Part shown: piece after piece, positions 2,211 to 6,033 of the stretch
Position numbering within the stretch: the stretch's first letter is position 1
Layout of the letters: every line of letters starts with the position of its first letter
Assembly (NCBI RefSeq): GCF_003119195.2
Contig: NZ_CP022254.1
Span: forward strand, 851,501 to 915,500
Direction of reading: 5' to 3'
From: Azospirillum baldaniorum
Lineage (GTDB): Bacteria; Pseudomonadota; Alphaproteobacteria; Azospirillales; Azospirillaceae
DNA: 64,000 bases
Made by a program: the position numbers and the translations under genes
The notes under the pieces: generated by a model
The model's input: the letters and a program-made list of their open reading frames with translations, nothing else
Database searches by the model: none
Told to the model about the DNA's origin: nothing

Positions 2211-3419
2211 TCAAGGGGATGATGCCACCAACGGCAGCTCGACGGTGAAGGTCGAGCCGCGTCCCGGCGCCGAATCGGCGGTGATGCGCCCGCAATGCCC
2301 CTCGACGATGGACCGGCAGATGTAGAGGCCGAGGCCGACCGTTCCCTCCCCCTCCGTGCCCAGCCGGCCGGTGCGGGCGAAGGGCTGGAAGAGCTGAGCC
2401 AGCTCCGCCGGCGGAATGCCGCGGCCGTCGTCGGACACACGCAGGCGCGCCCAGCCGCCACCTTTGCCCGGGCCCTCGCCCGGGGCCTCGCTCAGGGCGA
2501 CACGGACGCTCCCGCCGCGGTCGGAGTATTTGATGGCGTTCGACAGAAGGTTGTTGAGAAGCTGATCCAGCTTGGCCGGGTCGATGTCGGCCATGGGCAT
2601 GGGTGGTTCGGGCACGGACAGCTCGATGGTTATGGACTTGCCCTCGGCCAACACGCGGTTCATCGAGACGTTCCGCCGGACCAGCGTCATCAGATCGGAT
2701 GGCCGCCGTGCCAACCGCATCCGCCCCGCCTGGAGCGCCGCCAGGGACAGCGCGTCCTCCACCATGTGGCGCATGGACAGGCTGGATTCGCGGATGCGCT
2801 CCAGGCAGGCACGCTCCGCCGCCTCCAGGCGCCCGTCCAGCCTCTGCTCCAGCAGCTCCGCGAAGCCGACGACGACCTGGAGCGGCGTGCGCAGATCGTG
2901 GGCCAGCATGCCCATCAGCCGATTCTTCTGCTCGTTGCTGGCGGCCAGTTCGGCGTTGGCCTTGGCAAGCGCCCGCTGGGCGTTGGCCAACTCGTTGTTG
3001 AGAAGGGTCATTTCGCCGAACAGCGCGTCCAGGGTGGGAACCTCCGGCGCCGGCGCCGCCGTCCGAAGCGGAGCAAGCCGCTGGGCCAGCCGCGGATTCA
3101 GCGTCTCCAACCCCTCCAACACGGCGGGCAGCCCGCCGGGCGCCCGCGCCACGGCCAGCACCAACCCCTCCGCGTCGCTGAGCCCGCTGACATGGAATCC
3201 TCCCATGGGGTCGAGCCGGCTGGACAGGGGCTGGTCGACCACCCGGCCGGACTTCCGCAGGCCGCTGAACAGATCCAGCGCGCCGGCCACCGCGTCCGGG
3301 CCGAACAGAACCGGGAAAGGGGTGCCCGGCTTTCCGGCCAATCCCGGCAAACCGGCGCCCAGCCGGTGCAGGGCGCGCAGCCGCCCATCGTGGTCGCAGG
3401 TCAGGACCAGCCCGTCCAT
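2211..3419 (-). CDS. Soluble PAS-like sensor histidine kinase
   Basis: This 402-residue protein has no membrane segment, so it should sense a cytoplasmic cue. Residues 1-110 resemble a divergent PAS-like fold. Residues 135-165 form a coiled coil (NNELANAQRALAKANAELAA). The H-box is LAHDLRTPLQ with phospho-acceptor His174. The ATPase domain shows the N-box (NNLLSNAIKYSD, Asn290 and Asn294), the G1 box DDGRGIP (about 330) and the G2 box VGLGLYICRS (about 361-370). It lies 38 bp downstream of the B12-binding protein gene on the same strand, which is itself behind a single-domain response regulator. The most economical reading is one signalling unit in which the B12 protein modulates this kinase. 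That link is inference from gene order. Confidence 0.88.
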   Translation of the reverse strand: MDGLVLTCDHDGRLRALHRLGAGLPGLAGKPGTPFPVLFGPDAVAGALDLFSGLRKSGRVVDQPLSSRLDPMGGFHVSGLSDAEGLVLAVARAPGGLPAVLEGLETLNPRLAQRLAPLRTAAPAPEVPTLDALFGEMTLLNNELANAQRALAKANAELAASNEQKNRLMGMLAHDLRTPLQVVVGFAELLEQRLDGRLEAAERACLERIRESSLSMRHMVEDALSLAALQAGRMRLARRPSDLMTLVRRNVSMNRVLAEGKSITIELSVPEPPMPMADIDPAKLDQLLNNLLSNAIKYSDRGGSVRVALSEAPGEGPGKGGGWARLRVSDDGRGIPPAELAQLFQPFARTGRLGTEGEGTVGLGLYICRSIVEGHCGRITADSAPGRGSTFTVELPLVASSP

Positions 3420-3457
3420 GCCTCCTCCTTCAAGCCGTGTGGGTCACGGAACACGCC

Positions 3458-4567
3458 TCACGCCACACCGACGGCGCGGTCCCGAGCCGCCGGGCCGATC
3501 AGCCGCTCCGCGATGGCGACCGCCTCCTCCGCGCCGGGGGCGAAGGCGTCGGCGCCGACCGTCTTCCACAAGTCCGGAACGAGGTTGAAGGGGTAACCGC
3601 CGACCAGCACATGCGGCTGCTCTCCGGGTTCGGCGCGCACCGCGGCGATGAGGGCCGCAACCCGCCCGACATGGGCGGTGATGGTGGCCGACACCGCCAG
3701 GACGCGGGCGCCCCGCTCCCGCACCGACCGGACGACGCTGTCCGCGGGTGTGTTGGCGCCGAGATAATGGCTGTCCCACCCGGCCATCTCGAAGAAGTCG
3801 GCGACCATGCGGATGCCGATCTCGTGCTGCTCCCCGCCGACGCAGGTGGCGACCATGGACAGGCCGCGCCGCTCGGCGGCGAAGATTGCCGGATAGAGCT
3901 GGCCCATGATCGCCTGGGTGGCGGCGGTGGCGAAATGCTCGTGCGCCACGGTGATCGCACGCGTCTGCCACAGGCGTCCGATCTCGCGCAGGGCCGGCTG
4001 GAACACATGCAGATAAAGCTCGGGCACCGTCGCCCCGCCGGCCGCCGAGTCCGTCACCAGCTGCGCCGCCCGGCGCCGGTCACCGGACAACAGCGCATCC
4101 AGATAGGCGCGGGCGAGCGCGCCGAGCGGCGCGTCCGACCGCACGAAGGGCGGCACCTCCCGCGGCAGGGCGGGCAAAGCGGCCAGCCCCTCCCCCACGC
4201 AGGCCTGCACGCGCGTCGCCGTGGCGGGATCGATCCGGGCGGCCACCACGTCGCGGAGGATTTCCAGGCTTTCGCCCAGTTCCTCGTCGGGGATGCCGAT
4301 CCCGGCGAAGAGAACCTTGACCCAGGCCACATACTCGCGGAACAGCGCCGGGCTGTCGGCGGCCACGGCCTCCGCAAGATAAAGAAGATGAAAACCGACA
4401 TCCTCGACGCACCGCTCCCGCCCGGCCTCGCCGTAACGGGCGTAGAGCGCGGGCCAGCGCTCGAACTGGATCGCTACCACGGCGCGCGCCAATTCGGCGC
4501 GGCGGTCCGCAATGGGGTTGGAGGCGATCCGTATCGGGTCCTGAGAAGGCCGGGCGGTCTCCGGCAT
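3458..4567 (-). CDS. Cobalamin-binding sensor-type protein (W-x9-EH cap plus B12-binding domain)
   Basis: A 369-residue soluble protein. Residues 1-140 are an unassigned mainly helical region. Residues about 150-225 form a helical cap containing W200-x9-E210-H211, the motif that caps adenosylcobalamin in CarH-type photoreceptors. Residues 230-355 form the Rossmann B12-binding domain with E246-x-H248-x-x-G251 (the variant of D-x-H-x-x-G holding the lower ligand), SAT at 293-295 and GG at 323-324. No MerR-like DNA-binding domain is present, so output must pass through a partner. The kinase gene follows by 38 bp and a receiver gene lies upstream. The family also includes AerR/PpaA-like and corrinoid methyltransferase proteins. 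A light or B12 sensor is favoured by context, not shown. The ATG at 4567 was chosen because the frame upstream of it lacks coding character. Confidence 0.82.
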   Translation of the reverse strand: MPETARPSQDPIRIASNPIADRRAELARAVVAIQFERWPALYARYGEAGRERCVEDVGFHLLYLAEAVAADSPALFREYVAWVKVLFAGIGIPDEELGESLEILRDVVAARIDPATATRVQACVGEGLAALPALPREVPPFVRSDAPLGALARAYLDALLSGDRRRAAQLVTDSAAGGATVPELYLHVFQPALREIGRLWQTRAITVAHEHFATAATQAIMGQLYPAIFAAERRGLSMVATCVGGEQHEIGIRMVADFFEMAGWDSHYLGANTPADSVVRSVRERGARVLAVSATITAHVGRVAALIAAVRAEPGEQPHVLVGGYPFNLVPDLWKTVGADAFAPGAEEAVAIAERLIGPAARDRAVGVA

Positions 4568-4707
4568 GGCGCGGCGTCTCCGGTCGAGGGGGCGTTCGGA
4601 TGAAAGGTGCGCCCTCGCACCTGTTCCTGCAACGCCTGACTGCGCCGACCGGGTCAGATTTCGGCAACCACATCCTATGGTTGCCAATCCCCTGCTCAAC
4701 GGTTTTT

Positions 4708-5142
4708 CTAACGGCCTTTCTGAAGGACGAAGGTCAGCCGCTTCACGAGGTCGGCCTTCGACACCGGTTTCACCAGATAGCCGGAAATGCCGTAGGCGAT
4801 GGCCCGCTTGACCGTGTCGGCCTCGCGATGCGCCGTCAGCACGATCACCGGAAGGTCGGCGAGCGGGTTGCCCGTGGCGGTGCGCAGGGCGTGCAGCAGG
4901 TCCAGCCCGCTCATCCGCGGCATTTCCAGATCACAGATGGCGAGGTCCACCTCCTCCGCATGGTCGCGCAGAATGCCCAGCGCGGCCATGCCGTCCGACG
5001 CCTCCCACACATGGCGGACCTTCAGGTCCTGAAGCAGGCGGCTCATCAGCCGGCGGGTGAAGTCGTCGTCTTCGATCAGCAGGACGCGCAGGTCGTTGAT
5101 GCTGCGGCTCGGCAGCCCATCCTTCGCATTGTCAGTCAGCAT
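4708..5142 (-). CDS. Single-domain response regulator (receiver protein)
   Basis: The product of about 144 residues is a stand-alone receiver domain. It has the acidic pocket E24-D25-D26, phospho-acceptor D71 (CDLEMPRMSG), the switch Thr in VIVLTAHRE and the conserved Lys in LVKPVSKADL. There is no output domain, so it probably acts by protein-protein contact or phosphorelay. It is the first gene of a minus-strand group running into the B12-binding protein (140-bp gap) and the kinase. The start at 5142 gives the usual short N-terminal tail; an in-frame ATG at 5211 would add 23 residues. Its exact partner kinase is inferred from the neighbourhood only. Confidence 0.85.
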   Translation of the reverse strand: MLTDNAKDGLPSRSINDLRVLLIEDDDFTRRLMSRLLQDLKVRHVWEASDGMAALGILRDHAEEVDLAICDLEMPRMSGLDLLHALRTATGNPLADLPVIVLTAHREADTVKRAIAYGISGYLVKPVSKADLVKRLTFVLQKGR

Positions 5143-5421
5143 CGGCGCGGCCACCCATATCCGTGTCGTTGCATTGGGCAAATGCAGAAGCACGTTACAT
5201 CGTCGGGCCATGCCGGAAAAGCCGGTAAATGATGCTAATTCTGTAATTTATTCAACCGCAGGGACAGGAAGGCGACGCGTTGTTGCGGCCGATGGCGGCG
5301 ATGCGCCGGGGCCCGTTGTCCGCGGTGTCGGCCATCTGTTAAACCCAGACCGATTGGCGGTCGGGTCCGGCCCTTGAAAACGGCACCGCACCCGGCCCGC
5401 GGTTTGGAACAGCAGCGATCC

Positions 5422-6033
5422 ATGCAACTCGACCTTCTCAAGCGACCGGACGGGCGCACGGCCATCCTGATGCCGTCCGGCTTCGTTCTCGATCTGCTGA
5501 CGCCGGACGCCACGGGCATGCCGATCGAGGACATAGCCCAGTGCCTGTCGTCCCAGCCGCGCTGGGGCGGCGCGGCGCGGCCCTGGTATTCGGTCGCCGA
5601 ACATTCGGTGATGGTCTCGCGTCTGGTGCCGCCGCCCCTGGCCTACTCGGCCCTGATGCACGACTGCGAGGAATTCCTCGGCGACTGGCCATCGCCGGTG
5701 AAGGTCATGCTGGACCGCGACTACGTCAAACAGCGCCTTCACCCCGTCAAGGACGCGCTGCGCCGCTGGTTCGGCTTCGATGACGAGGCGCCGGCCATCA
5801 AGCAGGCCGACCTCGTCTGCATGGCGACGGAGCTGCGCGACCTCCTGCCCCCGGCTTGGCTGGATTGGGGGCATCTGCCGGCCGCCCACCCGGACAGGAT
5901 CGTTCCGGTCGGCCCCGACCAAGCTTATGCCCTCTTTCTGAGCCGGTACGAGGAGTTGAAGCACCTCGCCAAGCCCGTGAAGGCGAAACCTGCAAAAGCA
6001 ACGCGGAGCAGGCGCAAGCCGGAAGCGCGGTAA
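5422..6033 (+). CDS. HD-domain phosphohydrolase (YfbR-like)
   Basis: The 203-residue cytoplasmic protein carries a metal-dependent HD signature: YSVAEHSVMVS (His61), the HD pair at H80-D81 in ALMHDCEEFLGD, and a later Asp in KQADLVCMATE. This pattern matches YfbR-type 5'-deoxynucleotidases and related nucleotide phosphohydrolases. The substrate cannot be read from the sequence. The lysine-rich tail (KPVKAKPAKATRSRRK) is probably disordered. The ATG at 5422 was chosen over an in-frame TTG at 5374 because the latter adds a low-quality leader. It is transcribed away from the response regulator and ends 6 bp before the oppositely oriented dxs, so the two genes converge closely. Confidence 0.8.
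   Translation: MQLDLLKRPDGRTAILMPSGFVLDLLTPDATGMPIEDIAQCLSSQPRWGGAARPWYSVAEHSVMVSRLVPPPLAYSALMHDCEEFLGDWPSPVKVMLDRDYVKQRLHPVKDALRRWFGFDDEAPAIKQADLVCMATELRDLLPPAWLDWGHLPAAHPDRIVPVGPDQAYALFLSRYEELKHLAKPVKAKPAKATRSRRKPEAR

Follow-up and report, generated by a model that had tools for sequence, protein, structure and literature searches.

A photocobilin-type globin-B12 gene and its neighbouring histidine kinase gene form a conserved pair, a probable two-component light sensor

How could a cobalamin-binding module of the CarH type pass on a signal when it has no DNA-binding domain of its own? The question is raised by a locus in the window analysed here, a stretch of 64,000 nucleotides of Azospirillum baldaniorum, which lies on contig 2 of a genome of 7.68 Mb in seven contigs whose nearest relatives are Azospirillum. 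A sequence-only reading of the window had proposed that a stand-alone receiver, a B12 protein and a soluble kinase form one candidate unit for light or B12 signalling. Gene calls and Pfam searches found these three genes at the places given there, all on the minus strand: the stand-alone receiver at 4708-5142 (144 amino acids from the ATG at 5142; PF00072, 2.5e-27), the gene for the B12 protein, which we call globin-B12, at 3458-4567 (369 amino acids with an ATG start; B12-binding PF02310, 2.6e-22, and B12-binding_2 PF02607, 4e-16) and the soluble histidine kinase at 2211-3419 (402 amino acids; HisKA, 6.2e-14, and HATPase_c, 9.8e-30). They are read in this order and are followed by the genes for ExoD and a CNNM/CBS protein. 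The receiver and the globin-B12 gene are 140 bp apart, and 38 bp separate the globin-B12 stop from the kinase start. A search for promoters and terminators gave nothing above chance.

The B12 module of the central protein is real, but it does not stand alone, as an N-terminal globin detected with Pfam, phmmer and AlphaFold2 had been overlooked. Residues 18-133 (4169-4516, minus strand), which carry C53, D56 and W82, form a phycobiliprotein-like globin (photoglobin) according to phmmer against the PDB and AlphaFold2. When residues 1-149 were searched by themselves with phmmer against the PDB, they matched allophycocyanin beta-18 (9e-6) and, in the photocobilin 8J2X, its globin part (2.3e-5). 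The Pfam Phycobilisome match of the window globin (7e-4) is below the gathering score, and PF00502 was found at E<=0.01 in 45 of 67 globin-B12 relatives, with a best value of 2.5e-9. Further along the same strand come a CarH-type four-helix cap (residues 149-228, 3884-4123; PF02607) with W200-x9-E210-H211 at 3970-3935, and a B12-binding Rossmann domain (residues 236-365, 3473-3862; PF02310) with E246-x-H248-x-x-G251 at 3832-3815, in which H248 is the lower ligand; both motifs are present exactly as read earlier. The earlier statement that a DNA-binding domain is absent also agrees with our data, as Pfam gave no MerR match and the N-terminus is occupied by the globin.

The AlphaFold2 model of this protein has a mean pLDDT of 92.8 and places the four-helix cap and the Rossmann domain after the globin, whose residues 18-133 are all-helical with pLDDT mostly above 90. 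Photocobilins (8j2w and 8j2x) are its top sequence matches in the PDB, and they are also the top structural match of the B12 half (Z 25.6, rmsd 1.9 A over 208 amino acids), CarH coming next with Z about 20. In the structural search of the whole model the match list was filled by the B12 half, and the globin assignment therefore rests on sequence. The protein thus has the photocobilin architecture with the globin at its N-terminus, an order already among the groups listed by the photocobilin authors (PMC10979010).

The residues expected around both cofactors are strongly conserved. Among 104 full-length relatives, a set that includes near-duplicate Azospirillum sequences, W200, E210, H211 and G251 are invariant and H248 is found in 102. 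D56 is kept in 103 of the 104 and W82 in all of them, although globin conservation is somewhat favoured by selection because two of the six search patterns for relatives lie in the globin, whereas the capping motif is not among the patterns. Hand mapping on the phmmer alignment makes D56 and W82 the equivalents of SasPcob Asp270 and Trp296, which contact biliverdin (PMC10979010). A CXQD motif has already been reported in photoglobins (PMC10151467); covalent attachment of a bilin through Cys53, in a phycobiliprotein-like CxxD, was considered as a general requirement and rejected, the position being Cys in 54, Ser in 41 and Thr in 6 of the 104 proteins. Position 201, directly after the capping Trp, is Gln in 88 relatives and in the window protein, and His in 7. 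As controls we took five further B12 proteins from the same bacterial family, which are taken to be AerR-like; none of the five has the W-x9-EH motif, and the EH position is VT in all of them.

Genes relevant to both cofactors are present in the genome, which encodes a cobalamin adenosyltransferase, a heme oxygenase (31.9 bits, above the Pfam cut-off, as a partial match) and two phytochromes; phytochromes likewise use biliverdin. The heme oxygenase gene, and the conservation of D56 and W82 as strongly as the B12 motif, would suit a regulator in which the globin is the true light sensor and B12 is structural. We consider such a regulator very unlikely, since the AdoCbl capping residues are invariant throughout the 104 relatives and the bilin-only form of SasPcob does not respond to light (PMC10979010).

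The kinase is typical in its catalytic part. Its phospho-acceptor H174 and the residues N290, N294 and G362-L365 (G-boxes) are invariant in 46 kinases, and its model fold matches HK853 and the LOV-kinases. The earlier description of a membrane-free kinase with a PAS-like N-terminus stands in its first half, as no membrane segment is apparent in the open reading frame, and stands in part for its second: in the AlphaFold2 model the order of strands and helices at the N-terminus is compatible with PAS, but no Pfam model, PAS included, matched this domain in a family scan of 50 kinases. The N-terminal domain (residues 1-125, 3045-3419, minus strand), here called the partner domain, is the element conserved beside globin-B12 genes. 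Within it, C8 of the kinase (window 3396-3398), in the context L-x-C-D-x-x-G, is kept in at least 90% of partner domains.

Gene order across genomes shows that the conserved unit is the pair of globin-B12 protein and histidine kinase. The kinase gene directly follows the globin-B12 gene in nearly all relative loci. Outside Azospirillum, the partner domain lies beside the globin-B12 gene in 59 of 65 loci, mostly 6-60 bp past the B12 stop, as judged with a profile built from the same loci, so that the independent tests are the genome-wide scans given below; a looser cut raises the count to 62 of 65, one of which (L081) is merely a coiled-coil match. By their record titles, the taxa with the pair span roughly a dozen phyla, including Pseudomonadota, Chloroflexota, Desulfobacterota, Acidobacteriota, Planctomycetota, Gemmatimonadota, Verrucomicrobiota, Bacteroidota and Bacillota, together with methanogenic archaea and a Lokiarchaeote. 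Lack of conserved linkage, which had been named as the outcome that would count against the proposal, is thus decisively refuted for these two genes, and the idea that a CarH-type B12 module feeds a two-component kinase is supported in the form of a conserved gene pair.

The same neighbourhoods bear on another explanation, also raised in the sequence-only reading, by which the protein would be a corrinoid methyl carrier working with a methyltransferase. Matches to MtgC- and MtbC-type models do occur over the B12 half, but they are weak and score far under the curated cut-offs. Moreover, the protein has an additional globin domain, and among the neighbouring genes examined it is a kinase-type protein that recurs and no methyltransferase does, all of which makes a methyl carrier highly improbable.

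Genome-wide, the partner domain is found almost only beside globin-B12 genes. It is present in 22 of 82 genomes of the host's own family, each time with a globin-B12 gene adjoining the match, and in none of the other 60. Among 26 genomes from other lineages, 25 carry it, 23 of these in a single copy; among 398 Pseudomonadota genomes drawn evenly, it occurs in three, one being the window genome, each time beside a globin-B12 gene. The converse is weaker. Among four full-length globin-B12 genes in the 398 Pseudomonadota genomes, the one in G121 is without the partner domain. The domain is likewise lacking in three own-family genomes of another genus that have a globin-B12 gene, and the globin-B12 genes without it include those of G077, G078 and G080. 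Separately, two genomes (G010 and G028) hold second, diverged globin-B12 paralogues of 35% identity (L134 and L135), which are without the partner domain; a weak receiver-like gene lies downstream of the one at L134.

Several loci show that what stays constant beside globin-B12 is the partner domain and not the kinase. At L078 (6938-11176) it forms the head of a GGDEF protein that has six PAS domains, adjoining the globin-B12 gene, and in Adhaeribacter (L068:7036-7548, L072:7037-7564 and L084:7017-7517) it occurs nearly alone, as a protein of about 170 amino acids without a kinase directly after the globin-B12 gene. Divergence of the globin-B12 protein was also followed more closely by the N-terminal domain than by the catalytic part (Mantel r 0.82 and 0.59, n=33, neither value reached in 2000 permutations); both values are inflated by shared ancestry, and the informative part is their difference.

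The third gene of the proposed unit behaves differently. In each of the 14 Azospirillum contigs examined the receiver adjoins the pair, yet an orthologue with 66-100% identity is present in 45 of 45 Azospirillum genomes, about half of which are without the pair. We therefore rejected an obligate unit of all three genes: of the unit proposed earlier the pair holds, whereas the receiver, a core Azospirillum gene, is only a probable member. Receiver, ExoD and CNNM are contiguous in five of six pair-less Azospirillum genomes, and in pair-bearing ones the receiver is separated from ExoD by the globin-B12 and kinase genes, a cassette that is either present or absent. The suggested link to exopolysaccharide through ExoD was dropped, as genomes lacking the pair also have ExoD and CNNM after the receiver; neither was found in three contigs that keep the pair.

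In four of the six genomes lacking the pair, a divergent gene, on the opposite strand and upstream of the receiver, encodes a kinase; the window (4708-6033) has no such gene. By eye, the one at L137, among the pair-less Azospirillum loci L136-L142, is a PAS-HisKA-HATPase-REC hybrid. With such a kinase upstream of it in pair-less genomes, the receiver may have another or older kinase, and a kinase swap for one receiver is possible in Azospirillum. Being general across the genus also makes the receiver a weaker candidate for a specific target. We regard it as the probable, non-exclusive phospho-acceptor of the B12-linked kinase. For 22 of the 54 loci from other phyla that had sufficient sequence, the partner gene has a receiver gene as its neighbour or a receiver fused within it.

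Taken as a whole, the pair is likely to be a photocobilin two-component system. Light sensing and the binding of AdoCbl and of a bilin are putative functions assigned by homology, and we infer cofactor binding, photochemistry, physical contact, phosphotransfer and the direction of the response. AdoCbl would sit in the CarH-type pocket, with W200 and E210/H211 around the adenosyl group and H248 as the lower ligand, and biliverdin would probably be held in the N-terminal globin. By homology to SasPcob and AbDPcob (PMC10979010), the dark state would be an AdoCbl-bound dimer. Light would break the Co-C bond, green light directly and red light through the bilin if one is bound, after which the cap helix with E210/H211 would move and the cap would be rearranged. 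Because no His follows W200 (Gln201), a water-ligated cobalt as in SasPcob would be expected in the light, in contrast to the bis-His state of CarH. The changed surface may then act on the N-terminal domain of the kinase and shift its balance of kinase and phosphatase activity, the phosphate probably passing to the adjacent receiver in Azospirillum and elsewhere often to a receiver protein whose gene lies directly downstream. Action in trans on a separate enzyme domain, via protein contacts, has been demonstrated for photocobilins (PMC10979010). Bilin binding by AbDPcob is weak (PMC10979010), so that biliverdin binding is plausible here but not assured, and the globin may lack a bilin in some members.

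Habitat counts against a light-sensing role, as globin-B12 genes also occur in sediment and sludge MAGs and in anaerobes, settings in which light may be scarce. Such members, methanogens among them, would be accommodated by a sensor of cobalamin or redox state that informs the kinase about AdoCbl level, oxygen or the redox state of cobalt, its photolability being incidental. Adenosyl occupancy could vary without light if AdoCbl were scarce, and HbpS of the HbpS-SenS-SenR system offers a precedent as a cobalamin-binding accessory protein that tunes a sensor kinase in redox stress (PMC4991794). On the other hand, the adenosyl-capping W-x9-EH is invariant and marks light-responsive B12 modules in characterised proteins (PMC10979010, PMC11796333), and the bilin-pocket residues, needless for a pure B12-level sensor, are conserved as well. 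We therefore judge a state sensor unlikely. As an observation apart, globin-B12 genes with neighbouring kinase-type genes at L081, L085, L090, L094 and L100 belong to methanogenic archaea and a Lokiarchaeote, which is unexpected for a light sensor.

Beyond this locus, we put forward tentatively, as a proposal that may well not hold in full, that the PAS-like domain, which has had no name so far, serves stand-alone photocobilins as their dedicated receptor, through which two pigments, for green and red light, would signal in trans to kinases and occasionally cyclases across about a dozen phyla, with archaea and non-phototrophs among them. What stand-alone photocobilins do is less clear than what the enzyme fusions do (PMC10979010). 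The sensor type is already known; what the paired kinase offers is a testable answer to how stand-alone sensors relay their signal: the gene pair points to one particular protein, and one domain in it, as the conserved partner, so that in-trans signalling becomes testable with two purified proteins. If such signalling holds, plant-associated Azospirillum, whose nitrogen fixation and auxin production are reported to be affected by light (PMC10383956), would have a soluble two-colour kinase under B12 and bilin control, a possible optogenetic part.

Compared with known systems, the protein shares with CarH/LitR the adenosyl-capping four-helix bundle and the Rossmann B12 domain (Z about 20), but it has no MerR-type DNA-binding domain, carries an extra globin and has a kinase as output; CarH moreover has a His after the capping Trp (TtCarH His132, of the bis-His light state) where the window protein has Gln201. 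The SCHIC proteins AerR, PpaA and AppA have a cap without EH and an antirepressor-type B12 or heme domain, whereas EH is invariant in globin-B12 proteins. HbpS-SenS-SenR of Streptomyces (PMC4991794) is alike in that a cobalamin-binding accessory protein modulates a sensor kinase, but HbpS is secreted, has a GAF-like fold, binds aquo-cobalamin and heme, and signals redox. The photoglobin family (Schneider et al. 2022) shares the globin-B12 fusion, and its association with signal-transduction domains has been proposed; according to citing papers, signalling contexts are reported there. No histidine kinase partner is described in two photocobilin papers and a bilin-globin paper, a statement that does not extend to Schneider et al. 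2022, which may already list the globin-B12/kinase neighbourhood. Closest of all are the photocobilins SasPcob and AbDPcob (PDB 8J2W, 8J2X and 8J2Y; PMC10979010), which share the CarH-type B12 module with a phycobiliprotein-like globin, W-x9-EH, E/DxH and the biliverdin-contacting Asp and Trp, SasPcob also having Gln and not His after the Trp. Unlike these proteins with their fused diguanylate cyclase, the window protein carries no fused output, and has instead an N-terminal globin and a separate kinase as its partner.
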